This document shows positions 2,411-61,715 of a stretch of 64,000 nucleotides of DNA, in pieces. The stretch's first letter is position 1; each line of letters begins with the position of its first letter. The notes under the pieces were generated by a model. That model did not search any database, was not told the origin of the DNA, and saw only the letters and a program-made list of their open reading frames with translations. The translations under genes were made by a program, and so were the position numbers. The stretch is from Mytilus galloprovincialis. Lineage: Eukaryota > Mollusca > Bivalvia > Mytilida > Mytilidae. Location: the NCBI RefSeq assembly GCF_965363235.1, contig NC_134845.1:22880524-22944523 (forward strand), given 5' to 3'.

Positions 2411-3130
2411 TCAAATTGACCTTTAAACTTTACCTCAATTTCAAGGTCGTAGGTCAGTGATCTCGAATCAAAGAACCCCAGGTCAATCACTTGCATGGTT
2501 GTTGAGAAATACCGATTTCAAATACAAACAGGGAGAAAACTCCTACAGGTGTTGCCCAAAACACTTCGCCCTAAATGTACTTATCGTAAACAGTTATTTG
2601 GAAAACACATCATATCATTAACTGTTACAGTTTCTTTTGAATATAGATTACAAGCAAATTGAAAATTAAGAATATGACCTTGACCTTTGACCTTGACCTC
2701 AATTTCAAGTTCATAGGTCAGTGAACTCAAATCGAAAAACCCCAAGGTCAATCACTTGTGTGGTTGTGGAGAAATACTGATTTCAAATACATAAGGGGAG
2801 AAAACTCCTATTATAAATAACCAAAACATTTTGACTAAGCTCTGATTCCTTTCACGGATTTGGCTATCCTTTTCAAACCTTTTGGATTATAGCTTTTCTT
2901 CTTTTATATAAGCTTTGGATTTCAAATATTTTGGCCACGAGCATCACTGAAGAAACATATATTGTCGAAATGCGCATCTGGTGCAAGAAAATTGGTACCG
3001 TTTATGTTATTTTGACTAAAATAGGTTGAAGTTTCGCCTTATTGTAAACAATTATTTGACAAACACATCATATCATTAACCTTTGACCTTTGACTTTTGA
3101 CCTTGACCTCAATTTCCTTCAAATTAACCA
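2411..3130. repeat. Tandem repeat of about 230-260 bp, interrupted by an insertion
   Basis: Two long units and the start of a third are visible. Each unit contains a GACCTCAATTTCAAG-like block, GGTCAATCACTTG, GAGAAATAC, GGGAGAAAACTCCTA and, near its end, ACACATCATATCATTAAC (about 2607 and 3063). The first unit is uninterrupted. The second is split at 2838/3009 by an inserted element. The third is cut short after about 3120. Confidence 0.75.
2839..3008 (+). mobile_element. Short element with hammerhead-like core, flanked by 11-bp target duplication
   Basis: A 170-bp segment interrupts the second unit of a tandem repeat and is bracketed by the exact direct repeat ATTTTGACTAA (2828-2838 and 3009-3019). 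Near its 3' end are ATCACTGAAGA, GTCGAAATGCGCATCTGG and TTGGTACC, the same layout as the other hammerhead-type copies here but with CTGAAGA in place of the canonical CTGATGA. The neighbouring uninterrupted unit acts as an empty site. The target duplication shows an insertion event; retroposition is inferred from its length and from the absence of terminal inverted repeats. Confidence 0.7.
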
Positions 3131-10300: not shown

Positions 10301-13300
10301 AACGATGAAAGCATTAACATTGAGATCATTAAGATATATATAAAAAATTCAGTTGTAAGTGAAGAACAATAAGTGCAAGAGGAGAAGAATTGTATATACA
10401 TATATAGATTTAAAAACGAAACTTTATGCTTACATAACTCGTCTCTTCCTTTCATAAACTTCAAAGAAAGATACAGATAATTTAGAGTATTCATGCTATA
10501 CTAGCTGTGATGTCAGTAATATATATTACTGATTCTGCTGTGTTTCAGGAACTGAAGACAGTGCAGCAATAACATGTCCGACGTCAATACATGGGACATT
10601 TTCGTACAGTGATACATCTTGCACAAGTACTTTTCTAGACGTGTGTTCCACCCTTACACAGTTTTATTTCAATTATACTGTTTGTGCTGAAGAACAAATA
10701 TTTTCTGGTAAGTTAAACTAAAATTTTGGTTTAATAATGTTTTTGGTAAAGCATCGCATAAGTCTTCAAGTATTTATTATACATTTATAATTCACATTAA
10801 TTGGTTTGAACTTTTGTTCAGACAAGCGCTTTCGATGTAATAAATGAAGTGTTATTTTTTCTGACACTGAATAAATTGAGCTCATTGGACAGCGCTTTTG
10901 TACTGATGTGACTTTTTGAATACCAGTTTTGGAATCGATGTTGGTAAATTTAAACAATTTTCAGAAACTAAAGTTATACGGCTAGGCTTAAAATATAATT
11001 TTGGATATAACAGGTTTTTGTTTGTCCTTTTTTATATACCGCAATGAAGTATGTATAAATCAACGACCTTCTTAATATTTAGATTTCGGCTCTACTTTTA
11101 GAAATGTATTTTTAGTTAAATATTGCTTTTTCCCACATCCACTTAGCGTATTTGATATTTGTAGAAATGGCCAATGACTTAATCCAGATACACAAAAAAA
11201 GTCTGCATATTGAAAGTCAGTCTTTAATTTAGATGTGTAAAATTATTGTGGCTCTTTTTTTAAATTTTTAAACCTATTTACAAAAGACATGTATTCACTC
11301 TATATGATTGATGATGTGACGTTTAATTAGATTTGATAGTGCAAATGTGAATAATTTTAAAAGGAGCAATTGGTGTCGAACTCTAGTTCACCGATTTGAC
11401 TCAAAATAGCATATTTGGTTTATACATACTGAAACTTGTAATCAAATTACAAAAAATCTAAACAAATCATTAAACCATGCATGCATATGATTTCTAGTTT
11501 ATACGCAATCTTAAAACAGCTGGATACTATTTGAGGCTTTTTCAAGACATTCGACTGGTGTAATATGAAATCATTGTACTTTTAAATTTTGGTTCGTTAG
11601 ACTTTTACTTATTTTACTGGATTATTAAAATATACCATTTAAAATCTCAGGTTAAATATAAGTATATTTTATAACGATAATGCATGTACATTTGTCGTCC
11701 CTGTCTGCAAATCTATGAACTTTTACATTTGAGAGTTTTAAAGTATTTGCTTATGATATATGTAATAATCAATGGATATATAATTACATTTAAAGGGGGC
11801 ATTAATTGCCAATTTTATTTTAAAAAGTTGACCCAAACTCAGTAATTAGACTTACAAAATACTAAAACATTTAAGGTGGTACCTAACACTACAGGGAGAT
11901 AACTCTGTAAAATCAGCAGAACGTTTAAATGACGTTGTGTTCTTAAGGGAATATTAAGCTTCTCAATGATCAAAATGAGTGTTTGTCAAACTGTTATATA
12001 ACCAGTGTAATTTTTCTAATAAAACGGTTGGTTCAATATTTTTGTTTTTTTATATTTTTGTCAAAGGGTCAAAGTAAATACTTTGTCAAAATTTTAAGAA
12101 AATTAAACGAGCCAAATTAATTTTACTTCAGGTGTTAGGTACCACCTTAACAGAACTACAAAAGTTCAATAGGAAACAATATATAATTCATGCAATCGTT
12201 TTAAAGTATCCGAATTTCATGCGCACTTTCGGATTCGCAGACAAATCAATAAATATTGAGATGACAGCTAAATACTTCGAATTACCTAATGATCCGAGAT
12301 AATAATATAATTTGTAGTAAAGCATGCGCTATTATTTTATGACGATTTTCCTACGTCTGTTTGATAATGTCATAGATTCAATGCTTACATTTTTTAAATA
12401 AGCATGCTCATTAAATGCGCAGCCAATCTGAAACTAAAAGTCAAATCATGTTTTCATATCATGCAACTAATATCAAATTGCTCCCTGTCAATGCTTGTGG
12501 CGTTGTTTTGCAAGGCAACAGTAATAAATGAACTTTAGTAACAGGGATGTGCTCCTTACATAAAAACCTTTCCAAAAGAGTAACGAAAACGAACGACTGA
12601 AATTGTGACTACACGTTTTACGACCCCCCTCATTAATTGGTGGGCCGATAATATTTGTCAATCCACTTGCGATATGAACGGTCTTATTTAGACGAAACGC
12701 GCGTCTGGCAAATTATGAGCCCGGTACCTTGCTAACTCTTCGCGGCCTTAATAAGATACCAGTTTTGTCGTCTGATCTTCAATTAAATCAACATGAGCAT
12801 ATGACCGATTATTATTTTGACTGAGTGTGAATGTATGAGTAACTGGAGAAGTTTTCTCTGTCGAAGATTGTAGTTTCGCTAGTTGGAGATCATGTGATTC
12901 CCTTGGTTATTTTCTTTTACCTTGATTTGTCTCATATAAATCGTTTTATGAAATTCTAACATCGGTAAACAATTAAGGTAGCTCAAAACAAAAATGTGTT
13001 TACTTCCAATCACTAACCTTTAAAAGGCTGTTACTTTCTTATGAATGTCTAAAAGATAATAAAAGAGGTAAATATAGATAGATATAGAAAAATCTTTAAA
13101 ATGAATGCAATATTTTTTTTATGCAATCGTGATGTACTATTTATGTAATTAGTTGCAACAATCTCGGTTAGTTCACTTGAATGAATTTAGCTCTATCATC
13201 TCTTTAACTATACAGAAAATTTTAACGAAATCTTTATCAACACATCATGGGCTTCAAAAGGGTGTCTCAAATAGTCCCTATGGTATTCCATTCTCTCATA

Positions 13301-30100: not shown

Positions 30101-33100
30101 CTCTTCAATTTATAATATATGTAGAATCGCTTTTGTTTTATTAAAAGTAAAATATCAAGACATAACAAAGACTAGTAAAAAGTCAAAAAAGACAAGAGGA
30201 AAATAAAAGATTGAAAGTATATGTTTATGTAAACGTAATTAAAACTCTTTCAACTTATAATATGTGACAACATGTTTAAAATTAGCATTTTCTTTTCTTT
30301 TCAGCAGTTTTTTACTCATACACGACGACCTGGACAAACAACTGTTCGACCTCTTCCTGGGAGTCATGACATGTTTTGTCATAAACATGACATGCGTCAT
30401 GCCTTGCCATGGTCTTTAATAAATCAGTATCAAATAAGAGAATCTTCCCTGCTGGACATTAATAGTGTATCCAAGCACCATACAATGTCTAAATCAGCTG
30501 GCAATGTCAAACGAGATATGGACGATAGACGATTAAGAGAACTTTTAGAAGAGTTGTACAAAGACAAAAAGTATTTTGATCACGTGATAGATACAACTGG
30601 TAAGTGAATCTAAAATTTGAAACTCATAAATCATTATAAAAACGTGGTCTCAAGACGCATTGTGTAACTCTGGTAGGTCAATTTTGCTAGTAAAAAACTG
30701 CTTTATCTATGGTTTGAATTTATTGCGGACAGTGCTCAAGATAAAGGATTTTGTTTGTTATTAACATATTATTTCTGTACAGAACGATCAACATACGCAT
30801 GTAGTACTACGATTTGCTTGTTTCTCGTGATCATATGATATTCAAACTGAAATGTTTTTGTTTTATCGTGCATTATACTGACAGGTGCTACCTTTTCTTA
30901 ATGTTTTGCATCGCATGTTAACGCTTCATAGACCTACCTGTACATGTATTTCATAGCTTTCGTGGTGTTTCTAATTTGTCAATAGGTGGTTTGAAATGCA
31001 TAAAATAAGTTTGCATAGCTTTTTATTGATTTACTAACGCAAACTCATTCGTATCAGGGAAAAGATGTTATTAGAAAGTTCTGAAGAATATTTATTTTTT
31101 TATTAACAATAGTTTCAACAATTATATGGAGATTTGTTTATCAGCATACATTTGTTACAATTAATGAAATGTAATTCCAATTTAAAACTTTATTCTATCG
31201 TGATATAACCAATAAAGAACAAGTATAATAATAGTTAGTTTTAAGATTTTCACAAGTCAGAAATAATGTTATAATATAGGGTTATTGCATGAATATTGGG
31301 GAATATTGTCCCGAGTAGAATTTTATATTGCACGAGCTTGCGAGTGCAATAAAATTGAGAATGGAAATGGGGAATGTGTCAAAGAGACAACAACCCGACC
31401 AAATAAAAAACAACAGCAGAGGGTCACCAACAGGTCTTCAATGTAGCGAGAAATTCCCGCACCCGGAGGCGTCCTTCAGCTGGCCCCTAAACAAATATAT
31501 ACTAGTCCAGTGATAATGAACGCCATACTAATTTCCAAATTGTACACAAGAAACTAAAATTAAAATAATACAAGACTAACAAAGGCCAGAGGCTCCTGAC
31601 TTGGGACAGGCGCAAAAATGCGGCGGGGTTAAACATGTTTGTGAGATCTCAACCCTCCCCCTATACCTCTAACCAATGTAGTAAAGTAAACGCATAACAA
31701 TACGCACATTAAAATTCAGTTAAAGAGAAATCCGAGTCTGATGTCAGAAGATGTAACCAAAGAAAATAAACAAAATGACAATAATACATAAATAACAACA
31801 GACTACTAGCAGTTAACTGACATGCCAGCTCCAGACTTCAATTAAACTGACTGAAAGATTATGATTTCATCATATGAACATCAGGCACAATCCTTCCCGT
31901 TAGGGGTTATGTATCATACCATCATAACATATATGAGAAGAACATAACCCGTGTCATGCCAACAACTGTTTTTAGAATAAATGTGTTTAGTTCCGATGCA
32001 AAGACCTTATCAGTGACTCAATATTAACGCCAAAATATGCAATCTTTAATGACTTGACAACAGTATCGTAATTATATCCCTTCTTAATAAGTCTATTCAA
32101 AGGTTTTGTAAGTTTCTGAGGTGAATACTGACACATTTGTGCTTTATAAAGAATATTTCCATAAAAAATTGGATGTGAAATACCTGAACGTATTAGAAGT
32201 CTGCATGTTGAGCTATATTTACGAATGATGTCTTTATACCGATGATAAAATTTAGTAAATGTTTTGACTAGTTTGTGATATCGAAAACCCTGGTGTAATA
32301 ATTTTTCAGTAATACATAAATTTCTCTCGTTAAAATCTAAAACATTGTTACATACACGAGCGAATCGTACAAGTTGAGATATAAAAACACCGTAAGATGG
32401 TGACAAGGGAACGTCACCATCTAAAAACGGATAATTAACGATAGGAAATGAAAAATCATCCCTTTTATCATAAATTTTAGTATTCAGCTTTCCATTAGTG
32501 ATATAGGTATCAAGATCGAGAAAAGGGCAGTGGTCATTGTTAGTATTAGCTTTATTTAAAGTAAGTTCAACAGGATAAATTTCATTAATATACATACTGA
32601 AGTCGTCATTATTGAGAGCCAAAATATCATCCAAATATCTAAAAGTATTATTAAATTTGTTTATCAGATGTTGTTTCGATGGGTCTTTGCTTATTTTTGT
32701 CATAAATTGTAACTCATAACAATACAAAAACAGGTCCGCAATAAGTGGTGCACAGTTAGTCCCCATTGGAATTCCGATAATCTGACGATATACGGAATCC
32801 CCAAAGCGAACAAAAATGTTATCTAGTAAAAATTCAAGGGCATATATAGTATCAAAGCATGTCCAATTAACATAGTTTTTTTGTTTATTGCTACTAAAAA
32901 ATGACCTAAAAGAGTTTGAACATATATATTCACATTCTGATTTTTTGAATGCCCATTTAATTAGGTGTGTGAATTTTTTCTTAATGAGAATGTGAGGCAA
33001 AGTGGTATACAGGGTAGAAAAATCAAAACTTTGAACAGATTCAAAATCACCAATATAAGCATGCAATTTATCAAGTACTTCCAACGAGTTCTTGACACTC

Positions 33101-33924
33101 CAAAAGTAATTTATTCCACTATTTTCGAAGGCCTTATTTGAACAATTTATTATCAGGTTTTTAATTGTACCAAGTGTGCTGGTAAGAAGAATAGACAATT
33201 TAGTAGTTGAACAATGGCTTGAAGACGAAATAAATCTATATTTGTAAGGGGTTTTGTGTAGCTTCGGAAGCCAATATATAGTTGGGACTTTCATTGTATT
33301 TGGCTCTGCTTGTAAAGCGGTGGCTAAAAGTTTATGTTTGTTACAGATTTCGTTTTATATATGTTCTACGAGGGACAATATTTCCTAATATTCATGCAAT
33401 AATCCTTTTATTGTATAGCAATATAATATTTGAAAGTAAAAATTGGTTTAAACTAAGATTTTGTCGTTGATGACGTCATGAATTTTGACGATTTATTGCA
33501 CTAGTGCAATATTAGAATTTATTGCAGGCTAACTTTTGGTTACTTTCTGTGGGAAATATTATATTGCTATACAATAATATCAATGATTTTGTGAAAGTCA
33601 AATCATGTAATCAACCTTTTTTTAATTTTAGAGCCAAACACAGAACCAATAATAGACGAACGAGATTTAGCAGAACATGGACGAGGATTCTTGCTAGATC
33701 GGGCAGAATTTTGGGATGGAAGAGGCGTTCACATACCTCGCCCGCCAACAACTGCCTTAGGACTACGTTTATCTAGAATGAACACTAATATGCTTGACTC
33801 TGGTCGTGTATCTAATATATCATACGCATCCACAGTAACCCCGCCACCTCACCCTGAACAACAACAAGAAACACCAAAACAGCCCAAAGAAGCATTCGTT
33901 ATACGTGAACATACTGTGTGCTGA
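18089..33924 (+). CDS. Large charged protein, or alternative cytoplasmic tail of the receptor
   Basis: Exons 18089-18148, 21994-22020, 23659-23685, 24405-24428, 24988-25104, 25525-25872, 26354-26740, 27286-27408, 27595-27708, 28048-28152, 28690-28776, 29043-29283, 29501-29583, 29952-30041, 30305-30599 and 33632-33924 join to 2421 bases, an open frame of 806 residues plus stop. I do not recognise the family. The first half is Lys/Glu/Asp-rich and probably disordered. A PPGY WW-domain motif occurs in exon 26354-26740, a basic FKNKRKSRS patch in 28690-28776, a His/Cys cluster (CHKHDMRH) in 30305-30599, and proline-rich TPPPHPEQQQ near the C terminus. The start is the ATG at 18089. Because the receptor's transmembrane exon also ends in phase 0, exons from 21994 on could instead be its tail, giving about 1180 residues. 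Alternative ends lie at 23144 and 28603. Confidence 0.65.
19577..19700 (+). repeat. SINE-like repeat fragment
   Basis: GATGTGGTATGAGTGTCAAT-like start, GAAAACTCTTCACCAAGTCG, then AGTAGGGTCTTCAAGACGG and TTTGCTCACACCG. The block order matches 9455-9640 and the start of 47566-47640. Non-coding. Confidence 0.5.
19894..20286 (+). repeat. 197-bp tandem duplication
   Basis: Unit 1 (19894-20090) and unit 2 (20091-about 20286) both start TCTACATGTAAGACAAAAGA and end in CAATAACCCACATT or its near match. Shared blocks include ACATCCCTTACTGACGTC and CTCTTGTGAAGCAAATG. Only scattered differences separate them, so the duplication is fairly young. The repeated ACTGACGTC carries a TGACGTC (CRE-like) word; I attach no function to it. 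Confidence 0.8.
21873..21909 (+). repeat. AATAAA plus A-tract: possible retroposed transcript end
   Basis: AATAAA at 21873 and a run of about 15 A from 21895, some 16 bases further on. Same signature as 1275-1313. No ORF upstream. Confidence 0.35.
21994..22020 (+). CDS. 27-base acidic microexon
   Basis: Acceptor TTATTTTGTAG, donor GTAATT. It encodes VDKREDKEE, phase 0 to phase 0. It belongs to a set of small symmetric acidic exons (with 23659-23685 and 24405-24428) that can be included or skipped without changing the frame. Confidence 0.6.
22494..23144 (+). CDS. Alternative last exon, Asn/Asp/Glu-rich tail
   Basis: Acceptor ACAATTTTCAG, phase 0. It encodes EQQKSDENSNDMSQENENL and then about 190 further residues, mostly Asn, Asp, Glu, Lys, Gln and Ile (IDKEIQNNEIINNNTDD, for example). 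It ends TEQITQTVLITPI and a stop at 23144. AATAAA lies 61 bases on, at 23205. There is no good donor near the end, so it is best read as an alternative 3' terminal exon giving a short acidic tail. It has its own ATG at 22527. The composition is that of a disordered region and no domain is visible. Confidence 0.6.
   Translation, partial: EQQKSDENSNDMSQENENLTEEANIDKEIQNNEIINNNTDDKENIDNDQILKPENDYINDDNIENYVGQNNNGIEENKTIDQEIIKNDQNEQMEQSKEIENDDGTETKTDPKDKTIDDNSNPLQNNSIELNEKEGDAKDNNEPKNDVHEDQTPQNETKIEIEDDNSDNNVAKKQNRKVKIYERVDLDGNLDQRKPDDVTGEKNTEQITQTVLITPI
23205..23210 (+). terminator. Polyadenylation signal for the 23144 end
   Basis: AATAAA 61 bases past the stop at 23144, in AACAAATAAATACTC. The position is normal for a polyadenylation signal. 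Confidence 0.5.
23347..23450 (+). CDS. Doubtful alternative exon
   Basis: A good acceptor (TTTCTTTCTGCTTGAACAG) opens a phase-0 frame starting HDLLELHIDAFRLMSNK and running open to 23631. A weak GTAAAA donor at 23451 would close it in phase 0. The composition (Ile, Tyr, Leu) is unlike the neighbouring acidic exons, so it may only be intron. Confidence 0.2.
23659..23685 (+). CDS. 27-base acidic microexon
   Basis: Acceptor TTTTTTTTCAG, donor GTAACA. It encodes IKVKEQEDE, phase 0 to phase 0, and has the same size as 21994-22020. Confidence 0.6.
24405..24428 (+). CDS. 24-base acidic microexon
   Basis: Acceptor TTTATTTTTTAG, donor GTATCT. It encodes QKEDVDDE, phase 0 to phase 0. Third of the small symmetric acidic exons. 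Confidence 0.6.
24988..25104 (+). CDS. Exon of large charged protein
   Basis: Acceptor ACTTTGCAG, donor GTATGT. It encodes AENSGSEGTASSSRVTTPDP and ends GMKKSTDFK. A Ser/Thr-Pro rich stretch (VTTPDPEE) is a likely phosphorylation region. Phase 0 on both sides. Confidence 0.65.
25525..25872 (+). CDS. Exon of large charged protein
   Basis: Acceptor AATATTTTAG, donor GTAAGG. It encodes PQGDLSKVLVTRKMEEQKRK, a basic WTKMKNIFRVKAKKIKV segment, an acidic NSDSDDERLH segment and an ending in DSDDDDE. Phase 0 on both sides. A SINE-like repeat follows in the intron (25965-26240). Confidence 0.7.
25965..26240 (+). repeat. SINE-like repeat, second copy
   Basis: Full-length relative of 9765-10045. Shared words include GTGTGACCTACCGAATA, TTACCGGATTTG, CTTACCCTTCCGGAGCACCT, TTAGTTTTCTATGTT, AGCCATGGCGTTGTCAGTTT and CTCTGGTATCTTTC. 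Its 3' part is also found at 61863-61935 and, inverted, at 53590-53660. Confidence 0.65.
26354..26740 (+). CDS. Exon of large charged protein with PPxY motif
   Basis: Acceptor TTAACTTCCAG, donor GTAAGT. It encodes EFGGIIDDEKKRREHEKIEQ and a long Lys/Glu/Gln segment likely to be helical or coiled-coil, then DSGVDSPDF and TEPPPGYIRDSTGQII. PPGY fits the PPxY ligand of WW domains, as in NEDD4-type ubiquitin ligases; that binding is inference. DSGVDS resembles a DSGxxS phosphodegron, also inference. Phase 0 on both sides. Confidence 0.7.
27286..27408 (+). CDS. Exon of large charged protein
   Basis: Acceptor TTTTTTGTAAAG, donor GTAAGT. It encodes RLYDGKVMTQEEMQSIFPTA, then LGMLFHVPRLKRTSHGRPTG. 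Less charged and more hydrophobic than its neighbours, so this may be a small folded or binding segment. Phase 0 on both sides. Confidence 0.65.
27595..27708 (+). CDS. Exon of large charged protein
   Basis: Acceptor CTGTTTATAG, donor GTAAAT. It encodes EYIEDPFGPKLENDKESIRN and ends KPKHPRSSKG. Phase 0 on both sides. Confidence 0.65.
28048..28152 (+). CDS. Exon of large charged protein
   Basis: Acceptor ATAATTGCAG, donor GTATGA. It encodes SARRDIKEKTVAFDMDDGQS and ends VEDEDEWK. Phase 0 on both sides. The next exon is either 28541 (terminal) or 28690. Confidence 0.65.
28541..28603 (+). CDS. Alternative short last exon
   Basis: Acceptor CATTCCTTTTTTCAG, phase 0. It encodes TLPPQVMNLLNHKEESGDLE and a TAA at 28601. 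ATTAAA, a common variant polyadenylation signal, directly follows the stop (28604). Using it would remove the whole C-terminal third of the protein. Confidence 0.45.
   Translation, partial: TLPPQVMNLLNHKEESGDLE
28690..28776 (+). CDS. Basic exon of large charged protein
   Basis: Acceptor TTATTTGTAG, donor GTAAGA. It encodes HRRDSSTTNRELLRKRLFKN, then KRKSRSHGG. The KNKRKSR cluster resembles a monopartite nuclear-localisation signal, which would matter only for a soluble form. Phase 0 on both sides. Confidence 0.65.
29043..29283 (+). CDS. Exon of large charged protein
   Basis: Acceptor TTTGTCATACAG, donor GTAAGT. It encodes ADNKMFMSDDGRPRELSDLV, then IPQNSANKYLLNGRAPIPG and ends KKILERSPSLK. 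It enters in phase 0 and leaves in phase 1, so from here on the exons are not freely skippable. Confidence 0.7.
29501..29583 (+). CDS. Exon of large charged protein
   Basis: Acceptor TAAAATTGCAG, donor GTATAT. It completes an Arg codon and encodes PPGVPRQAFTEQDPDDIRVS, ending IDNEENE. Phase 1 in, phase 0 out. Confidence 0.65.
29952..30041 (+). CDS. Exon of large charged protein
   Basis: Acceptor TTCATGTTACAG, donor GTACAA. It encodes NRLQRQENGINIGSDDEFFL and ends DDREQQPE. Phase 0 on both sides. Confidence 0.65.
30305..30599 (+). CDS. Exon of large charged protein with His/Cys cluster
   Basis: Acceptor TTCTTTTCAG, donor GTAAGT. It encodes QFFTHTRRPGQTTVRPLPGS, HDMFCHKHDMRHALPWSLI, and a C-terminal charged helix DDRRLRELLEELYKDKKYF. 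The Cys/His cluster could bind a metal, but it matches no zinc-finger spacing I know. It leaves in phase 1. Confidence 0.7.
31279..33405 (-). mobile_element. Penelope-like retroelement bracketed by inverted repeats
   Basis: On the minus strand lie an open reverse-transcriptase frame (31987-33294) and a 3' untranslated tail ending at 31351. The tail is matched almost throughout by the plus-strand fragment 57060-57784, which fixes the 3' end of the family. Outside the element, TTATTGCATGAATATT (31282) has its inverse AATATTCATGCAATAA (33387) on the other side, and each arm extends through an ATATTGTCCC-like block. So either the element has inverted termini or it landed inside a fold-back element. 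It appears 5'-truncated. Penelope-like assignment rests on the RT motifs and is fairly firm. Confidence 0.65.
31987..33294 (-). CDS. Reverse transcriptase of a Penelope-like element
   Basis: An open frame of 435 residues. Motifs in order: YWLPKLHKTPYKYRFIS (about residue 7), FDFSTLYTTLPH (RT block with the first catalytic Asp, about 90), IIGIPMGTNCAPLIADLFL (about 170) and FRYLDDILAL (the catalytic D-D pair, about 220). It ends LIRSLHRN and a stop. The IPMGTNCAPL form is common in Penelope-type RTs of molluscs and other invertebrates. No GIY-YIG endonuclease is visible in the frame. The N-terminal part usual for the family is missing. It lies antisense to the host gene, in its last intron. 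Expression is unknown. Confidence 0.75.
   Translation of the reverse strand: MKVPTIYWLPKLHKTPYKYRFISSSSHCSTTKLSILLTSTLGTIKNLIINCSNKAFENSGINYFWSVKNSLEVLDKLHAYIGDFESVQSFDFSTLYTTLPHILIKKKFTHLIKWAFKKSECEYICSNSFRSFFSSNKQKNYVNWTCFDTIYALEFLLDNIFVRFGDSVYRQIIGIPMGTNCAPLIADLFLYCYELQFMTKISKDPSKQHLINKFNNTFRYLDDILALNNDDFSMYINEIYPVELTLNKANTNNDHCPFLDLDTYITNGKLNTKIYDKRDDFSFPIVNYPFLDGDVPLSPSYGVFISQLVRFARVCNNVLDFNERNLCITEKLLHQGFRYHKLVKTFTKFYHRYKDIIRKYSSTCRLLIRSGISHPIFYGNILYKAQMCQYSPQKLTKPLNRLIKKGYNYDTVVKSLKIAYFGVNIESLIRSLHRN
33632..33924 (+). CDS. Last exon of large charged protein
   Basis: Acceptor CTTTTTTTAATTTTAG. It completes a Glu codon, then encodes PNTEPIIDERDLAEHGRGFL, DRAEFWDGRGVHIPRPPTTA and a Pro/Gln-rich end TPPPHPEQQQETPKQP, finishing REHTVC. 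The IPRPP and TPPPHP stretches could be SH3-type ligands (inference). TGA at 33922-33924. Confidence 0.7.
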
Positions 33925-34419: not shown

Positions 34420-37320
34420 TATGCTCACGTTTACAACACACCACATCAACCACCAACATTCTTACGTATACAACACACCACATCAAACACCAACATTCTT
34501 ACGTATACAACACACCACATCAAACACCAACATGATTACGTATACAACAGACCACATCAAACACCAATATGATAACGTACTAAACACCAACATGCTAATG
34601 TACTCAACAGACCACATCAACCACCAAACACTACTATTCTTACGTATACCACAAACCCCATTTACCACCAACACTGTCATGCTCACATATACAACAGACC
34701 AAAACATATCAACTACAAAAACTGCCATACTCATATATACAACAGATCACAACAACCATCGACACAACCATGCTTCTGAATACAATAGATAACATCAACC
34801 ACCAGTTTTATCATGCTCATGGATACAACAGACCATATCAACCACCAACAACGCCATGCTTACGTATACAACATACCAAACTAACTACCAACACTACCAT
34901 GCTCATGTATACCAATTACAACATCAAATTGAATCACCAAACACTTCCATGGTCACATAAACAACATACACATCAACCACCAACACTATCATGCTCATAT
35001 ATACAACAGACCACATTAACCACAAACAATATCATACTCACGAATACAACAGACCACAGCAATGCCAACACTACCATGCTCACCTATACAATATACCATA
35101 TCAACCAACAAGACGTCCTTGCTCATGTATTCAATAGCCCACATCAATTAACAACACTACCATGCTCAAGTTTACAATAGGCCCACTTAATCACCAATAC
35201 TGTAACGCTCACGTATACAACAGACCACATAAACAAATAACACTGTCATGCTCACATTAACAGGCCACATAAACCACCAACACTGCCATGTTCACGGAAA
35301 CAAAAGACCACATCAACAACCAACACTATCGTCACACGGATACAACAGATCACATCAACCACCAACACTATCATATTTACTGATAGATTGTACAACATAC
35401 CAAACTAACCACCAACACAAACATGCACACGTATACAGCAGAACGCATCACCCAACAACTCAAACATTCACACGGATACAACAAATCATATCAACTTCAA
35501 AAACTCATATTATCACATACAACAGATTACCACAACCACCAATACAACCATGCCTCTGAATACAACAGATAACATCAACAGCCAATCATTCCATGCTCAC
35601 GTATAAAACAGACTACATCAACCACCAATGATATCATGCTCATGTATACAACAAACCATATCAACTTCAAAAACTCATATACTCACATACAACAGATTAC
35701 CACAAAATCCAACACAACCATGCTTCTGAATACAACAGATAACATCAACAGCCAACTATTCCAACTACATCAACCACCAATGCTATCATGCTCATGTATA
35801 CAACAAACCACATTAACCACCAACACCACCATGCTCACGTATACAACACATCACATCAACCAACAACACTGTCATGCTCATGTATGTAACAGACCACATT
35901 GTCCACCAACAATATTATCCTTACGAATACAACATACCACCACTACCATGCTCATGTTTACAATATACAATATCAGCTAACAACACTTCCATGCTCATGC
36001 TTTTGATAGACCACATCAACTAATAAAACTACCATGTTCACATTAACAACATACCAGATCAACCAACATGAACCCATCAGACTACAAAATTAACCAACAA
36101 AATTACCATGCTCATGTAAACAACAGACCATATCATCTTCCACCACTGTCATGCTCAAGGATACAACAGACGAAATCAACCACCAACACTACCATGCACA
36201 ACTATACAACATACAACATCATCTATCGACACTTCCATGTTCAAATATACCACCGACCACATCAAATAACAACACTACCATGATCATGTATACAACCCAC
36301 CATATCAACCATTAACAATGTCATGTTCACGAATATAACAGACCACACCAACCACAAAAACACTGTCATATTCACGAATATAACAGACCACACCAACCAT
36401 CAACACTGTCATGTTCACGAATATAACAGACCACTCCAACCACCAACACTGTCATGTTCACGAATATAACAGACCACACCAACCAACAACACTGTCATGT
36501 TCACGAATATAACAGACCACATTAACCAACAACACTGTCATGTTCACGAATATAACAGACCACACCAACCACCAACACTGTCATGTTCACGAATATAATT
36601 GACCACACCAACCACTAACACTGTCATGTTCACGAATATAATTGACCACACCAACCACCAACACTGTCATGTTCACGAATATAAACCACCAACACTGTCA
36701 TGTTCACGAATATAACAGACCACACCAACCAGCAATACTGTCATGTTCACGAATATAACAGACCACACCAACCACCAACACTGTCATGTTCACGAATATA
36801 ACAGACCACACAAACCACCAACACTGTCTTGTTCACGAATATAATTGACCACACCAACCACCAACACTGTCATGTTCACGAATATAACAGACCACACCAA
36901 CCACCAACACTGTCATGTTCACGAATATATTTGACCACACCAACCGCCAACACTGTCATGTTCACGAATATAATTGACCACACCAACCACCAATAATGTC
37001 ATGTTCACGAATATAACAGACTATATCAACTAACAACACTACCATGCAGACCACACCATTAACCACTAAAACTACCATGCTCACGGTTACAACAGACATC
37101 CCAAACTACCTACACTACCATGCTGACGTAAACAACAGACCACATCAACCAACAAACACTTCCATGCCCACGTATACAACAGTCCTTATCAACCACCAAC
37201 ACTGCCATACTCACGTATTCAACAAACCAAAACAAAGAACAACACTACAATGCTAATAAAAACAACAGACCCCTTCAGCCACATCAACCACCAACACCAC
37301 CATGCTCACGTTTACTAAAT
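34420..37320 (+). repeat. Minisatellite, 43-bp unit with homogenised core
   Basis: About 2.9 kb of tandem units built on CAACAGACCACATCAACCAC followed by CAACACTACCATGCTCACG-like sequence. The first units are 37 bp long; most later ones are near 43 bp. From 36325 to 37012 the units are nearly identical: I count 17 copies of TTCACGAATATA, with the variants AACAGACC and AATTGACC interleaved. The edges are diverged. That is the usual pattern of unequal exchange acting in the middle of an array. Many short open frames rich in Thr, His, Asn and Gln cross it, but they are a by-product of the repeat. Confidence 0.9.
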
Positions 37321-45599: not shown

Positions 45600-45738
45600 G
45601 GAATACGCAATCATACATTGTACCACATCTCATTAGAAAAAATTGAGAGATATTTAATATATTAATATAAAATCACATATCTCTATCTCTCTCAGTTTTT
45701 TCTAATGAGATGTGGTATAGTGTATGATTGCGTATTCC
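45600..45738. repeat. Fold-back element with about 53-bp arms
   Basis: GGAATACGCAATCATACA and ACCACATCTCATTAGAAAAA on the left return as TTTTTCTAATGAGATGTGGT and TGTATGATTGCGTATTCC on the right. The loop is about 35 bases of AT-rich DNA. Nearly perfect arms imply either youth or repeated gene conversion. Confidence 0.85.
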
Positions 45739-47029: not shown

Positions 47030-47200
47030 CTATTCGATATTTCATTTTGGTCCTCAATGCTCTTCACATTCATACTTTATTTGGTCTTTTTAACCTTTTT
47101 TTCGAGTGTCACTGATTAGTCTTTTGTAGACGCAACGCGCTTTTAGCGCAAAATACAAAATATCAATCCTGGTATCTACGAGGGGTTTATTTACAACCTC
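47030..47200 (+). mobile_element. Hammerhead-type element, decayed copy
   Basis: TTTTGGTCCTCAATGCTCTT start, then GAGTGTCACTGATTAGTC, TTGTAGACGCAACGCGC and CCTGGTATCTACGA. The core boxes CTGATGA and GAAA are changed to CTGATTA and GCAA, so self-cleavage is not expected. Confidence 0.65.
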
Positions 47201-47404
47201 TGGGTCAATGCCACTACTGTTGGAGTTTTTATTCCCCGAGGATATCACCAGCCCAGTACTTTTGTGTTGACATGAATTATCATTTATACATATGGTCATA
47301 ATTATAAATAAACTGTTTACCAAACTTAGAATTTTTGAAATACAAAGGCTTTTCTAATTTCTACCTCAGGAATAGATTACCTAAGCTGTATTTGGCAAAA
47401 CCTT

Positions 47405-47565
47405 AAGAAATTTTTGGTCTTCAATGCTCTTGAACTTCGGACTATATTTGATCTGTTTAACCTTATTTTATTATTTGAGCGTCAATGATGATTTTTTTGT
47501 AGACGAAACGTGCGTCTGACGCAAATACAAAATTCTCATTCTGGTATCTATGATGATAGATATAA
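47405..47565 (+). mobile_element. Hammerhead-type element, second decayed copy
   Basis: TTTTTGGTCTTCAATGCTCT start, GAGCGTCAATGATGATTT, GTAGACGAAACGTGCGTCTG and TTCTGGTATCTATGATG. GAAA is kept, but the first box reads ATGATGA. It lies only 240 bp after the previous copy in the same direction, and a SINE-like start (GAAGATGTGGTACGAGTGCC) follows at 47566. Confidence 0.65.
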
Positions 47566-54922: not shown

Positions 54923-55200
54923 TCAGTTATGTATCGGTGGTAGCGGTTTAGTACGTATGGCTGAGCTTGTTGGTGGTCGCGGTTGTTCGGGTAATGGTGT
55001 TAGATTTCTTCTCAATGCCTCATTTAGGGGTTCTGGATGTTGGTAAATCGTTGATGTCATAGCAAATGGAGAATTGGAGTTTGCAAGAGTCCTTCTGTTT
55101 TCATCTAAGCTTCTGTCGTTTTCTAGACATTCAACGCTTATTTTGTCTTGTCGAGAAACCAGTTTTGCTCTCGAATTATAATCTTTTGAATTTGGATTTT
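54923..55200 (-). CDS. Receptor 2, last exon (distal alternative)
   Basis: Acceptor ATATTCCTTACAG on the minus strand. It enters in phase 1 and encodes ENPNSKDYNSRAKLVSRQDK, CLENDRSLDENRRTLANSNS, and ends PLPEQPRPPTSS and TKPLPPIHN. The repeated PLPxxP and PLPP motifs at the C terminus look like SH3 ligands. TGA/TAA stop at 54923-54925. Confidence 0.7.
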
Positions 55201-58200
55201 CTGTAAGGAATATAACTAATCGTTTCAATACAATTTATTTATATTTTTATATGATGAACATTAACAAAAATATTAACAATGCACACACAGCGTGCAATAA
55301 GTATAAAAACATTAACGAACAAAAAACCCCAGTTAAAATTGATAACAAAAATAATAGCGCCATTAACATCATATGTAATTTCTATTACTGTACTGTTCCA
55401 TTGGTATTGCTCTGTCACGTGGCGATAAAGAGTCTACAACTAAATCATCCGACATGGTTGGTTCTCTCTTCAAATTTAATTCTGAAATGAAGAGAGAACT
55501 GTTGTTGTAGATCATCAGTATCGCCACAATTACGTTTTATATTTACAACTATAACCCTCTTATTTTTTTTGGTGTACTGTCAAAAAGTCAGATTGATGAT
55601 TTTCTTCCACCGATATGCTGTTTTATATTATAGTGTCCTTTGGTTTTGTGTGTATGCTTTCCTGACAGTTAATATTTATATATGTGTTTATAAGCGAATT
55701 AAATAATTATCTTCACAACATGTTGGAAGTAAAATAACAATTCGTGCACATTAAATAAAACTTTTCTTTCATAAGTTAGATATGCTTTGTATATATTTAT
55801 ATATACTCTTTCAAAATAATAATTTTGAAAGCATTTTGGTTTATTGGTTGAGTTTAACTACTTTGATCGCATCTATTTTATCGAACTTGTAATAAAACAA
55901 TTACAAATTATTCATATCTATAATGGTACATGTACCTGAAAACTGATACTGATAGTCGGTTGCAAACTAAACTTATGTGACAAAAGATACAAATTCAATT
56001 ATCCAATTGTGAACTTATTTTTATGATTTGAGGATTTTTGTATGTTCCCTAAAACATCCGATAGCTAGGAAAAGTACAACATTTTGATAGTTTGTCTTTT
56101 AAATAATTGTAATTATTGAATTTGTTTGTCGTTTATTTGTCCCATTTGCACCTACCTGAAAGTGTAAAATCTGAATCTGGTGGTAGAGGCTGCTTAATAT
56201 CGGTGCAATTTTCTTTCAGTGACTGTCTATGCTGAATTTGTGATTTCTTTCCTTTGAAATATTTCTGGTATATAAGAAAGGCAATAATAACAATAGCTAT
56301 CAGCAATAGTATTGACAGGACAGCCCCTACCACTGCTGCTGTGTTACTACCATCTGAAGAACTTTCACCTGTTGAGGGGTTAGTAATGCTGCTATCGTTG
56401 CTAGATGTCGTAGGCATCATGGTAGTAGTTGAAGTCGTTGTTGTAAAGACTGTGATATAAATTTTTCGATTACAAGAACTATATACATTGTACATTTAAA
56501 AACTTATAAATAACACATTTGATATAGGCTTGCTTACAGCCTTCGACAAAACCACGAAATTAAATATCAACGAACATTGATACCACCGAAAATAAATGAA
56601 TCCACCGTAACTTCAAGTCATATCAGTTTGCAATTAAGCTGTCTTATCATTATCTTTTTTTTTTAAATTCAGGTTTGTCTACTTGTTGTTGTACAGCATG
56701 TCTTTTTGAATTGTTGTAAGTAATGTCATGCATTCTTTTTGCATTGTTGTAAGTAATGTCATGCATTCTTTTTGCATTGTTGTAAGTAATGTCATGCATT
56801 CTTTTTGCATTGTTGTAAGTAATGTCATGCATTCTTTTTGCATTGTTGTAAGTAATGTCATGCATTCTTTTTGCATTGTTGTAAGTAATGTCATGCATTC
56901 TTTTTGCATTGTTGTAAGTAATGTCATGTATTCTTTTTGCATTTTTGTAAGTAATGTCATGTCATGCATTCTTTATATACTAATACACTTCTCAAGTGAT
57001 TGTATTTATTCATTATTAAAACATACAAAAACCATTATTATTTAAAAAGTACTGACTGCTTCTTATTAAGAAGGGATATAGATACGATACTGTTGTCAGG
57101 TCATTAAAGATTGCATATGCTGGCGTTAGTATTGATTCACTTATAGGGTCTTTGCATCGGAACTAAACACATTCATTTAAAAACCATTTGTTGGCATGAT
57201 ACGGGTCATGTTCTTCTCATATATGTTATGATGGTATGATACTAAACCCCTAACGGGAAGGATTTTACCTGAAGACATAATATTTCAATCAGTTTAATTG
57301 AAGTCAGGAGCTGGCTTGTCAGTTAATTGCTAGTAGTCTGTTGTTATTTATGTATTATTGTCATTTTGTTTATTTTCTTTGGTTACACCTTCTGACATCA
57401 AATTTGGACTTCTCTTGAACGGAATTTTAATGTGCGTATTGTTATGTGTTTTACTTTTCTACATTGGCTAGAGGTATAGGGGAAGGGTTGAGATCTCATA
57501 CACATGTTTAATCCCGCCGCTTTGTTGCGCCTGTCCCTAAATCCTTTGTTAGTTTTGTATTATTTTTAATTTTAGTTTCTTGCGTACAATTTGGAGTTTA
57601 GTATGGCGTTCATTATCACTGAACTAGTATATATATATTGTTTGGGGGCCAGCTGAAGGACGCCTCCAGGTGCGGGAATTTTTCGCTGCATTGAAGACCT
57701 GTTGGTGACCTTCTGCTTTTGTCTGTTCTTCTATGGTCGGGTTGTTGTCTCTTTGACACATTCCCCATTTCCATTCTCAATTTTGAATCATACAATATTT
57801 ATTGTCTCTAAACCACCGAAATATTTCTCTTACCGCGAGTAAAACTACTGCTGGAATTATCTTTTTAATTAAAGACTTGAAGTTCTCACATGTTCATAGA
57901 ATATCCAATGCAAAGAAATATTCGTATTTTGAGACATTTCGTCATTAAGACATATATCAGTATTGATATTTATGATCAGCAATTATCAATTGAAACAAAT
58001 AATTTAAATGCTGTTGCTAGCTATATATAGAAACAGATTACTAGCATTTTGTGATAGCATTAAAGGGTACGTGAATCTTCTTTTATATTATATCTTAAGC
58101 TTGTTTAGTAAACATTTCACACCACATCTTCCTATATCTATTTAATAATATCTAGAACATCTAAATGAACTCATCATAGATCATGTAGATACCAGGACTA

Positions 58201-61200
58201 AATTTAGTATACGCCAGACGCGCGTTTCGTCTACAAAAGACTCATCAGTGACGCTTGAATCCAAAAGCTCTTAAAGACTACTTACGACATGTTTCTGAAA
58301 AAAAACGTAAAACTAGTCATTAGTGTACTCAGAGATAAAGAAAGATTGATATATTTCCGATTGTTTTATCATTTTATCATTTTAGACAAATTGTTTCGAC
58401 CGTTATATTTGTCCATGATAAGGCACCATACAATTTAGAACATTCAATTACAAAAATACGACTTGTATGAGATCTAGAGTTGTTTAAAATCCAGTGAAAT
58501 GATAATCTCAGAATTCAAATATAATTATTGCTATTAAACATTTTACTTCGATATAATGAGATGGCTAAGAGAATACAAAATTATGTGTGCTTCGATATTT
58601 GGTTTATCAAGAATACAAATATGGGTGGCTTTGATCGTATTTAAGAAACGTTAAACGTCATCGTGGACATTTAATTTAAAAGATTATTGTATTCGCATCT
58701 TTCATTTGTTTTCTTCCAGATACGTTTAGTTGTTTGGAACCAGATCTTTCACTGTTCAGTTTTGTGATAGCATATTGTTTAACGATTTTAAATGTAACGG
58801 ATCAGATCAACGGAAAATAGTATGGTAACCGTCGTATTTAAATAGCAGAGACAATACACAACATTTTGTATTGTGCAAAGTACTTTGCGCAGACAGTTTC
58901 AGATTTATAAAAAGCATTAAATTTCTTTTTCATTTAATAAGTTTTTGTTTTTAAATAACATACCATATTCTGTCAATGTAATGAGTAGACTGTCAGCATG
59001 TGATGTTCTACTTGTTGAAACTTGATTAGCTGCACATCCGCCAGGATTTGTACTAATGGAACGCGAACTACCAGATTGTGATACCGCCTGAAAAATAGCT
59101 ATGTATAAAAAAGAATCTGAATTTACAGTTATTAATAGTTGTGAAAGGTACCATGATTATAATTTGATAAGCCAGACGCGCGCTTCGTCTACATAAGACT
59201 CATCAGTGATGCTCAGATCAAAATATTTATAAAGCCAAGCAAGTACAAAGTAAAACTAACACGTTCAGAAAATATATCGCAGAAATAATGAAATATGATT
59301 TGTAAACTATACAACAACGATTTTATTTTACCAAAAAATTATCTGTAAAATATATAAACATAATCATACTAATAATAAATGCCATTATCACAAATGTGTG
59401 AACTGCTCAACAAATCTGACTTTTAATTTGCATTTTCGTTAATTGAAATCTAGTAAATACAAGCTTTTGCACATTTAGCTTGGCGGTGTTTTTTGTTTTG
59501 TTTTATTTCGTTACCTTTAGTAAATTCGGTATGATATTGAAAAAATATAAAACAAAGTAGCAAAATCAAAAACCCAGAGCATTATTTTGTCTATTATATC
59601 GAAGAACAAACGTGAACAAGGTCGATGCTTAACAAAAATATAGAATGTCAATCGAATATTCGTGTTAATATGCTTACATGAATATCAACGAAAACTGCTC
59701 AACATCCTGCTTGAGTCGTTGTCAAGGTTTAGTGAAGTGTAAGATTTTGCTTCATATTTAACACTGTGGCTGTGAGATAACAAAAAGCAGTCAAAGTGCA
59801 GTTCAATTGCCTTTTCTTATCATCTACATACAGCAAAATTATTCCAAAACTTGTATTATAGTTAATTTTACTTACAATACATGTGAAAATTGGATCTGCT
59901 CCATTAGAATTGATCAGAATTGTGTAGTATGTTGATCCAGTAGCAGTCACGTTCGCTACATTAAAGAATATTCCAGTGGCTAAAATAATAGATAAACGGT
60001 TGCCAAATATGTTATATATAAACTGATATAACACTAACCAAAAATTGAAATCACGTTAATGCAAATGTCGTTTAATGAACCTCATAAATATTGCACAAAA
60101 TTAGAAAAAGTGGCAATAGTTGACGTAACTATTGAATTCATAAGCTTGAATGTCCTTTTAGTATCTCTCGCCTCTTTTTTCATTGAATGACATCAAGGAT
60201 ATCAACGTTTCCTTGCTTATGTCTTAAGTTTGCTAACATTTTAAATGATATTTTATTAACGCCTGTCACACCTCAGAAACAATTAGCCTTTGTTAGTTTT
60301 GAAAGATTTATAAATGTTGGTTCATTTGTATGTTTCGGACTTAAGTGTGATGTTCATTTCCGATTTCACTCAACTAGTATTCATTATTGTTTAGGGGCTA
60401 GCTGAAGCCCGCCGTCGGATGCTAGATTTTCTAGTTGCGTTGGATACCTATTGGGGCACTTGGGTTATTTTCGACTCTTTGGTCGGGGTGTTGTCTTTAA
60501 TATATTCCCCGTTTACGTTCTTTATTCGAGTGTACAATGGAAGTTTTCGGTGAATGCAGGACTCAAATTAATGTCAATATTTTTCATGTGAATATTAGAA
60601 ACTAGTTTGAGTTTTGTCTCAACACTAAACTAAAGAGTATTAAAGAAAAAAAATAGTTTGATATACGAATAAATGCGTATGTTAAAATTCGATTCATTCC
60701 CCGACCGTGCGAGGGCTTTAGAGTCAGTAAAGGTCGTTAAAAATCACCATCATTATCATCGATTGATTATAGTATAAACTATATAAGTAAGAGGATTTTT
60801 TGGAATTACTTGCGGATCGAAATTGAGTACATTTGTTGTTTGTTGTTGCCCAGGTGTTTCGCGGTATTATTACCGACTTCACACCAATTTTTGTCATGTA
60901 AATTGAATTTGATTGAACCTTTTTGTTTGTTTATGAATTACGGGTTTAATTGCAGTTGACCGATTTTTTTGCGGAATTACAATATAATGTTCATTTTCGG
61001 TCCCTTGACCTATGATGAAGTATAATACCAAGAAAACTATTTTGTCCAGCCTATAAATATAACGTCTGTATATCGGATGTATTCGTGAAGAATCGGTACA
61101 TATATTTTTTAAAATGTATATTGTCAATTGCTACCACTGCAGAATGAAATGTCAGAAGAGCAATTATAATTTAATATTTAATTTATATCAACAGAAGGGA

Positions 61201-61715
61201 TGATTTCGCGCAAATACGCGGCATAGGGATAAAGACGGCCATTCTCTATATACATCTCAGCGGTCGTCAAATTAATCTAATTAAACTTCCTGTGCCTCTG
61301 CTAGCTTTGAGAATATATAAGTAGCTATTTTTTTTATTATCCAAACAAGAAAGTCTATATAACGAGTGAAACGATATAACCTAGATTAAAAAAAAAACAT
61401 CACAGAAAAACTTAACTTACTAATTTCTGTAAAATTATAAAACAGCAACTTCATTTTAACCAATAAAATTTTTAAACATGGAAATAAAATTTTGAATTCA
61501 ATAAGAAAAGAACTCACTGGAACCCATAACCGTTGTTGCACACGTTGTGTAGTTTAAAACAGCAGTTGTTCTGTCTATATATCCATTTACATAGCATCCA
61601 TCCCAGACAGATCCTGTTCCACATGATGTACTAGAACCGTCATTAACAGTGTATGAAAACACTCCAAGCAGAGGATCAGGAAAGTACTGCTCGAGGTGAA
61701 CAGATTGTTGCATAT
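54923..61715 (-). CDS. Paralogous membrane receptor-like protein, 5' incomplete
   Basis: Minus-strand exons in transcript order: 61715-61518, 59979-59876, 59087-58964, 56449-56156, then either 55481-55369 or 55200-54923. With the second ending, the frame is open throughout for about 332 residues. The ectodomain exons match exons d, e and f of the plus-strand receptor in order, phase and local sequence (G-x-F-S-Y, conserved cysteines, the N-Y-T sequon). A Thr/Ser-rich stalk (FTTTTSTTTMMPTTSS), a helix VVGAVLSILLLIAIVIIAFL and a basic YQKYFKGKK stop-transfer follow. The tail is short and has Pro-rich ends. It is a type I membrane protein by layout; the signal peptide and first ectodomain module must lie upstream. 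Ligand unknown. One intron contains an apparently intact hammerhead core in the sense direction. Confidence 0.75.
55234..55239 (-). terminator. Polyadenylation signal for the proximal alternative end
   Basis: AATAAA on the minus strand about 130 bases after the stop at 55369 and before the next exon begins at 55200. Its position between the two terminal exons fits alternative polyadenylation. Confidence 0.45.
55369..55481 (-). CDS. Receptor 2, last exon (proximal alternative)
   Basis: Acceptor CTCTCTTCATTTCAG on the minus strand, phase 1. It encodes ELNLKREPTMSDDLVVDSLS and ends PRDRAIPMEQYSNRNYI with a stop at 55371-55369. It joins the same donor (56156) in frame as the distal exon and both begin with Glu. 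The two tails have different content: this one lacks the proline motifs. Confidence 0.6.
56156..56449 (-). CDS. Receptor 2, transmembrane exon
   Basis: Minus-strand acceptor TTATATCACAG, donor GTAGGT. Phase 1 to phase 1, 294 bp. It encodes VFTTTTSTTTMMPTTSSNDS (likely O-glycosylated stalk), GESSSDGSNTAA, the helix VVGAVLSILLLIAIVIIAFL, then YQKYFKGKKSQIQHRQSLK and QPLPPDSDFTLS. Confidence 0.8.
56704..56970 (+). repeat. 33-bp tandem repeat in intron
   Basis: Seven full units of GTCATGCATTCTTTTTGCAT plus TGTTGTAAGTAAT (56725-56955), preceded by a partial unit and followed by a partial one. The first six full units are identical; the seventh has two changes. Because 33 is divisible by three, all frames without a stop stay open: on the minus strand this gives an 11-residue repeat MHDITYNNAKR. 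It lies in an intron of the minus-strand receptor. Confidence 0.9.
57060..57784 (+). mobile_element. 3' fragment of the Penelope-like family
   Basis: Starts inside the reverse-transcriptase frame (LIKKGYRYDTVV, then SLKIAYAGVSIDSLIGSLH) and runs through the stop at 57164 and the 3' tail. It matches the tail of the 31279-33405 element almost throughout and ends at the same CCATTTCCATTCTCAATTTT. Only about 35 codons remain, so it is a strongly 5'-truncated copy. It sits antisense in an intron of receptor 2. Confidence 0.85.
58140..58290 (-). mobile_element. Hammerhead-ribozyme element with intact core
   Basis: On the minus strand: GTCA, CTGATGA (58248-58242), helix II GTCT...AGAC, GAAA (58228-58225), helix III CGC...GCG, then the cleavage triplet GTA (58212-58210) and TCCTGGTATC. 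All invariant positions of the minimal hammerhead are present: CUGAUGA, GAAA and UH. Helix III is only 3 bp, as in retrozyme-type hammerheads of metazoans, which work better as dimers. It lies in the receptor 2 intron 56450-58963 and is transcribed with the gene. Confidence 0.75.
58964..59087 (-). CDS. Receptor 2, ectodomain exon (matches exon f)
   Basis: Minus-strand acceptor GCTATTTTTCAG, donor GTATGT. Phase 0 in, phase 1 out, 124 bp. It encodes AVSQSGSSRSISTNPGGCAA and ends SHADSLLITLTEY. It aligns with the plus-strand exon 14767-14899 at the S-I-x-x-N-P-x-x-C core. Confidence 0.75.
59150..59240 (-). mobile_element. Hammerhead-type element, nearly intact copy
   Basis: Minus strand: GCATCACTGATGAGTC, TTATGTAGACGAAGCGC, GCGTCTGGCTTATC. 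CTGATGA is intact but GAAA reads GAAG and the 3' strand of helix III is changed (GCT for GCG), so activity is doubtful. It lies in the sense direction in the intron between two receptor 2 exons. Confidence 0.7.
59876..59979 (-). CDS. Receptor 2, ectodomain exon (matches exon e)
   Basis: Minus-strand acceptor TATTATTTTAG, donor GTAAGT. Phase 1 in, phase 0 out, 104 bp, exactly as in the plus-strand exon 14002-14105. It encodes TGIFFNVANVTATGSTYYTI and ends DPIFTCI. NVT is a further N-glycosylation sequon. Confidence 0.8.
60365..60515 (+). repeat. Decayed Penelope-like 3' tail
   Basis: ACTAGTATTCATTATTGTTT, GGGGCTAGCTGAAG, CGCCGTCGGATGCTAGATTT, TGGATACCTATTGGGGCACT, TTTGGTCGGGGTGTTGTCTT and ATTCCCCGTTTAC follow the tail of 57605-57784 in order, with many changes. 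Older than the 57060 copy. Confidence 0.6.
61518..61715 (-). CDS. Receptor 2, ectodomain exon (matches exon d)
   Basis: Minus-strand acceptor AATTTATTTCTAG, donor GTGAGT. Phase 1 to phase 1, 198 bp. It encodes MQQSVHLEQYFPDPLLGVFS, YTVNDGSSTSCGTGSVWDGC, and NYTTCATTVMGS. It is 39 bp longer than the plus-strand counterpart through an insertion before the cysteine region. Most 5' exon of this gene seen. Confidence 0.8.

Follow-up and report, generated by a model that had tools for sequence, protein, structure and literature searches.

A stretch of 64,000 nt of Mytilus galloprovincialis DNA (contig NC_134845.1 of RefSeq assembly GCF_965363235.1, positions 22,880,524 to 22,944,523 of the forward strand; hereafter, the window) carries a type I hammerhead ribozyme motif on its minus strand, at 58254-58211, within an intron of a predicted membrane-protein gene. 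The locus very probably represents a solitary copy, young and truncated at its 5' end, of the mussel retrozyme that lacks long terminal repeats (non-LTR retrozyme). This element is already known, being an abundant published mussel retroelement: M. galloprovincialis has been described as having ~5,000 type I hammerheads of two similar families, in repeats that are usually ~350-390 bp (Cervera and de la Pena 2020, PMC7229834). The copy would belong to that published family by analogy, given its mussel host, the type I hammerhead, the size of the repeat, the two similar ribozyme families, and a copy number in the thousands. It differs from the element of that account in that it is solitary and has kept only ~105 bp, and the likeness is one of description, not of letters.

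The hammerhead at 58254-58211 is a real motif. Its parts follow one another in the correct order on the minus strand, as the first-pass annotation of the window had claimed for the boxes, helix II, and helix III: the helix I strand GCGTCA, CTGATGA, the GTCT/AGAC strands of helix II, GAA, and a short helix III. All that defines a type I hammerhead (CUGANGA, GAA, three helices, and an NUH triplet in the type I order) is present, the triplet being GUC. The Rfam model RF00163 covers the site at model positions 1-45 with 32.5 bits, for an expectation value (E) of 1.6e-6 when 301 bases are searched and 3.4e-4 when the whole window is searched. In addition, a descriptor scan that required the boxes, an NUH triplet, and at least 3 pairs in helix II, 2 in helix III, and 4 in helix I found this single site in the window, and no site in 60 first-order Markov sequences, each 64 kb long. 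Helix III, ACGCGCGU, is weak, with either two pairs closed by a GCGC loop or three pairs and a 2-nt loop. From its sequence, the hammerhead is predicted to be catalytically active.

The position of the cut has been revised. With the GUC triplet at 58219-58217, all six positions of helix I pair (GCGUCA with UGGCGU), in agreement with the Rfam alignment. With the GTA triplet at 58212-58210, which had been taken earlier as the cleavage triplet with ends at 58210/58209, helix III has four of four pairs, but only the first and fourth of the six helix-I positions can pair; consequently, there is no helix I, and GTA was discarded as a misreading. The predicted cut thus lies between 58217 and 58216.

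The genome that was searched comprises 1.385 Gb in 331 contigs. One open frame of 770 aa in it is matched by a mussel foot-protein repeat (12 matches, best E 4.9e-11), in support of a Mytilus-type mussel. Counted on both strands, the genome contains 2,230 exact copies of the 44-mer of the hammerhead (1,121 + 1,109) and 13,301 copies of the intact 32-nt core (6,539 + 6,762), tandem and solitary ones together, whereas the reversed-pattern controls for both occur nowhere in the genome. On average, a core occurs about every 104 kb, so that 0.6 would be expected in a 64-kb window. An 86-nt query, with 40 of 1,288 candidates scored, gave 42 listed matches, of which 41 were 97-100% identical and one was 83% identical. 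In a genome search with RF00163, in which 74 of 224,653 candidates were scored, 29 of the 37 listed matches pass the cut-off, with a top score of 42.4 bits. The core had no match among the viral contigs scanned, although records close to the mussel genome may be excluded from that set. Because identical motifs exist in the thousands, one would expect many intact copies to lie in sense within introns of this genome. The claim that the position of the present hammerhead is notable has therefore found no support, and the copy looks ordinary within its family.

The proposal of a retrozyme-type origin, by contrast, has gained support from these thousands of intact cores together with a tandem unit of ~364 bp. 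Five cores in the locus L031 are spaced 364-365 bp apart, and three in L032 are spaced 356 bp apart. Thus, the family has the small direct tandem repeats (150-450 bp), each with a type I hammerhead, by which a retrozyme is recognized, but the insert itself, of ~105 bp only, is neither tandem nor full length. Aligned to a natural 364-bp unit of L031, it starts at unit position 267 and thus comprises the 3' part only. Its borders were sought with a 751-nt query, for which 40 of 1,716 candidates were scored and 82 matches listed. Every listed match besides the locus itself falls within query positions 335-447 (58266-58154), with 415 and 439 as common end points, and the listed matches extend no more than 8 bases into the flanks of the insert; this search skips very common words and scores the best candidates only, so that the flanks are not thereby shown to be single-copy. 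The many matches ending at query position 439 place the borders at about 58266-58162, within a few bases. A tail that is longer by 9 nt is shared with L064 and occurs as variants in L065, L067, and L068, and, judging from these sequences, looks like a subfamily trait. Elsewhere in the genome (G000:C14:56132083-56141523), 26 listed insert matches lie on one strand within ~9.4 kb, an array longer than any in the loci that were read.

Target-primed reverse transcription leaves a fixed 3' end and variable 5' ends. Among the 30 loci from the 86-nt search, which are not all independent (L019/L020 and L026/L027 lie in common arrays, and L014-L016 have common flanks), 25 have their final aligned segment terminating at unit position 360-364, with variable starts on the 5' side. 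Genomic copies usually have their 3' end 48 nt beyond the predicted cleavage point; consequently, the ribozyme cut is not where insertions end.

The copy also appears to be recent. It is identical (100% over 77 nt) to L002, which lies on another contig, and is therefore young. The longer relatives in the window, three in number, match a genomic unit at 79-82% and are therefore old. In the related copy at 59251-59146, inspection by eye shows that A15.1 is G and that helix I is down to three pairs; in the tandem copy, the most complete one found in the window and aligned in two pieces (47044-47193 and 47194-47556), both hammerheads are broken. Five relatives in the window were judged by eye to be without parts of the motif, in keeping with the five damaged copies that had been reported. 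Two further window matches (33 and 25 nt, E 0.065) were not retained among the relatives. Since the copy is young, its age suffices to explain why it is intact, and selection is not needed.

In the model of PMC7229834, oligomeric RNA is transcribed from the tandem units of intact arrays, each hammerhead cuts, and the resulting unit-length RNAs would be circularized by a host ligase. The circle would then be reverse-transcribed by the enzyme of another element, and Penelope-like elements are given there as strong candidates for its supplier. The insert at 58266-58162 presumably arose by this route: reverse transcription would have begun at the usual 3' site (the ...GAGTTTATTTA end) and halted after ~105 nt, just beyond the ribozyme, leaving the intron with a single hammerhead, sense-oriented by chance. 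For a Penelope-like enzyme, reverse transcription in vitro has been described as starting from within the template (PMC11167929), and 3' ends that lie 48 nt past the cut would fit such a start inside the RNA. The RNA of the copy would probably cut slowly at the predicted point; a cloned mussel repeat is reported to cut itself with an observed rate constant (kobs) of ~0.1 per min, and circular RNA is reported to be abundant (PMC7229834). A solitary copy without an adjacent partner cannot release a unit. Thus, with a single cut site, no unit would be excised and no circle would form, and the spliced-out intron would most likely be degraded.

Several findings weigh against this origin. First, letters of the core and of the unit were found in no paper of the library searched, and identity with the published family is judged from host, size, ribozyme type, and copy number. 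The search with Rfam hammerhead models that had been proposed as a check gave a match over the full length of RF00163 with a low E over the window, but the score is under the Rfam gathering cut-off of 34 bits; as a result, a default Rfam scan of the window listed no match. Furthermore, among seven family loci scanned, one match (in L026) reaches this cut-off. The minimum-energy fold of the 68-nt stretch is a different hairpin of -14.6 kcal/mol, compared with -6.7 for the hammerhead pairing, and this pairing is absent from the predicted fold of a 200-nt context. Some loci depart from the common 3' end (L002 ends at unit position 107, L011 at 258, and L027 at 83), L026 runs off its locus, and L001 ends at 349, where BLAST stops at the longer tail. 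Lastly, inspection by eye revealed no target-site duplication around the insert.

Another hypothesis is that the insert is a remnant of the pseudo-LTR of a Penelope-like element instead of a retrozyme, which we regard as very unlikely. Such elements are described as bearing type I hammerheads in tandem pseudo-LTRs (PMC7761336, PMC11167929), and so resemble the mussel unit in ribozyme type and tandem arrangement. However, the hammerheads of these elements have been characterized as minimal and in most cases devoid of helix III, and the elements carry a reverse transcriptase gene, whereas the mussel unit, which is non-coding, has a short helix III. The window does contain, at 31990-33354 on the minus strand, an open frame of 455 codons with FDFSTLYTTLPH, GIPMGTNCAPL, and FRYLDDIL. 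By eye, these are Penelope-like motifs, and we take the frame to resemble a Penelope-like reverse transcriptase; Pfam and PDB searches of the frame gave no match in support of a reverse transcriptase. The frame lies ~25 kb away from the insert, and no hammerhead appears in its vicinity among the Rfam matches up to E 10; the descriptor scan would miss minimal hammerhead forms. Moreover, the units of ~360 bp abut in L031 and L026/L027, and the stretches of L031, L032, and L026/L027 that were read have no room for a reverse transcriptase gene between the hammerhead repeats. A Penelope pseudo-LTR was accordingly rejected as the likelier source.

The other hypothesis of consequence is that the hammerhead acts on its host gene. 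The exon model of that gene was built from splice signals and phase, on sequence only (Table 1); a piece at 55481 that resembles an exon is out of phase with the last exon as modelled and was omitted, and it may be an alternative end. The protein of the joined exons has a transmembrane stretch and a marginal Pfam match to DUF7042 (E 7.2e-6; 26.4 bits, cut-off 27), and among the single frames none of the families shown by Pfam is above its cut-off. The gene thus appears to encode a DUF7042-like single-pass membrane protein, although the match is marginal. The first-pass annotation had called it a receptor, a designation that goes further than a single-pass membrane protein with a marginal DUF7042 match supports. 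That the hammerhead is in sense and intronic holds within the model, in which it lies between exons 59087-58964 and 56449-56156, with 746 nt separating it from the 5' splice site and 1,766 nt from the 3' splice site. The same intron contains eight nearly perfect 33-bp tandem repeats at 56696-56961.

With such a placement, a co-transcriptional cut of the pre-mRNA could alter splicing or the choice of isoform. There is a precedent in amniotes, for which conserved intronic hammerheads, such as that of RECK, have been described with a suggested role in mRNA biogenesis (PMC6155905). Like the mussel motif, these are type I, intronic, and thought to derive from retroelements. Unlike it, they are conserved across species in that description, whereas the mussel site was examined in one genome. 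Furthermore, the mussel motif is one among thousands that are identical, and it is young, so that constraint is not demonstrable; the rate reported for the cloned mussel retrozyme is slow; and in work on a hammerhead in the 3' flank, the cut left the upstream RNA on the polymerase, with earlier work on splicing cited there to the same effect (PMC2288634). Given the thousands of identical motifs, domestication by the host gene was rejected as the default reading, and a role in splicing is slightly less probable than the Penelope origin. Nothing points to a host function for the copy at 58266-58162, and it probably has none.

A more elaborate possibility, in which we place still less credence, involves the two sense-strand retrozyme remnants that lie upstream (59251-59146) and downstream (58266-58162) of exon 59087-58964. 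If both cut, even weakly or when paired through a shared helix III, an exon RNA of ~960 nt would be released, and this could be circularized by a host ligase. Finally, a chance match to the hammerhead pattern, for which only the score below the Rfam gathering cut-off would speak, has a negligible probability and was rejected in view of the Markov controls and of 13,301 genomic cores against none for the reversed pattern.

Two other repeats were noted in the window. A tandem array of ~2.8 kb with a unit of 37-43 bp occupies 34421-37282 of the plus strand. At 45611-45727, also on the plus strand, is a long AT-rich inverted repeat that is MIR1509-like in Rfam (49.5 bits, cut-off 87, E 5.2e-7); our guess is that it is a palindromic transposon, not a microRNA.

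Table 1. Coordinates of the hammerhead, the retrozyme insert, its relatives in the window, and the modelled exons of the host gene.
Feature	Position	Strand	Basis or remark
Type I hammerhead ribozyme motif	58211..58254	-	RF00163, 32.5 bits, model 1-45
CUGAUGA catalytic box	58242..58248	-	sequence
Helix II GUCU/AGAC, 5-nt loop UUUGU	58229..58241	-	pairing check
GAA box, then helix III ACGCGCGU	58218..58228	-	pairing check, descriptor scan
Helix I 5' strand GCGUCA	58249..58254	-	pairs with UGGCGU 58216-58211: 6 pairs, 2 of them G-U
Possible distal helix I GGAUU	58258..58262	-	faces AGUCC 58199-58195; by eye only
Predicted cleavage point, after C58217 of GUC	58216..58217	-	inferred from fold
Insert of ~105 bp, 5'-truncated retrozyme: 3' end of ~364-bp unit, from unit position 267	58162..58266	-	genome matches, unit alignment
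Old related copy, 78.6% to unit	59146..59251	-	in preceding intron; Rfam 22.3 bits
Old 1.4-unit tandem retrozyme copy	47044..47556	+	82% and 80% to unit; most complete found in window
Element fragment, 29 bp	12681..12709	+	similarity to unit
Degenerate element fragment, 62 bp	2920..2981	+	similarity to unit
Host-gene exon	61518..61715	-	splice signals, open frame
Host-gene exon	59876..59979	-	splice signals, phase
Exon upstream of hammerhead intron	58964..59087	-	splice signals, consistent phase
Exon downstream of hammerhead intron, encoding transmembrane stretch	56156..56449	-	splice signals, phase
Last modelled exon, ending TGA	54924..55200	-	splice signals, phase

As a solitary, truncated retrozyme copy, the hammerhead at 58254-58211 is of little importance as a single site. 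Were the two remnants in this gene to act together, they could yield an exon circle made by ribozymes in an animal gene, and, given the thousands of genomic copies, hammerhead-flanked exons of this kind might be frequent in mussels. For the family as a whole, the 13,301 intact cores indicate the number of possibly active hammerheads in the mussel genome.

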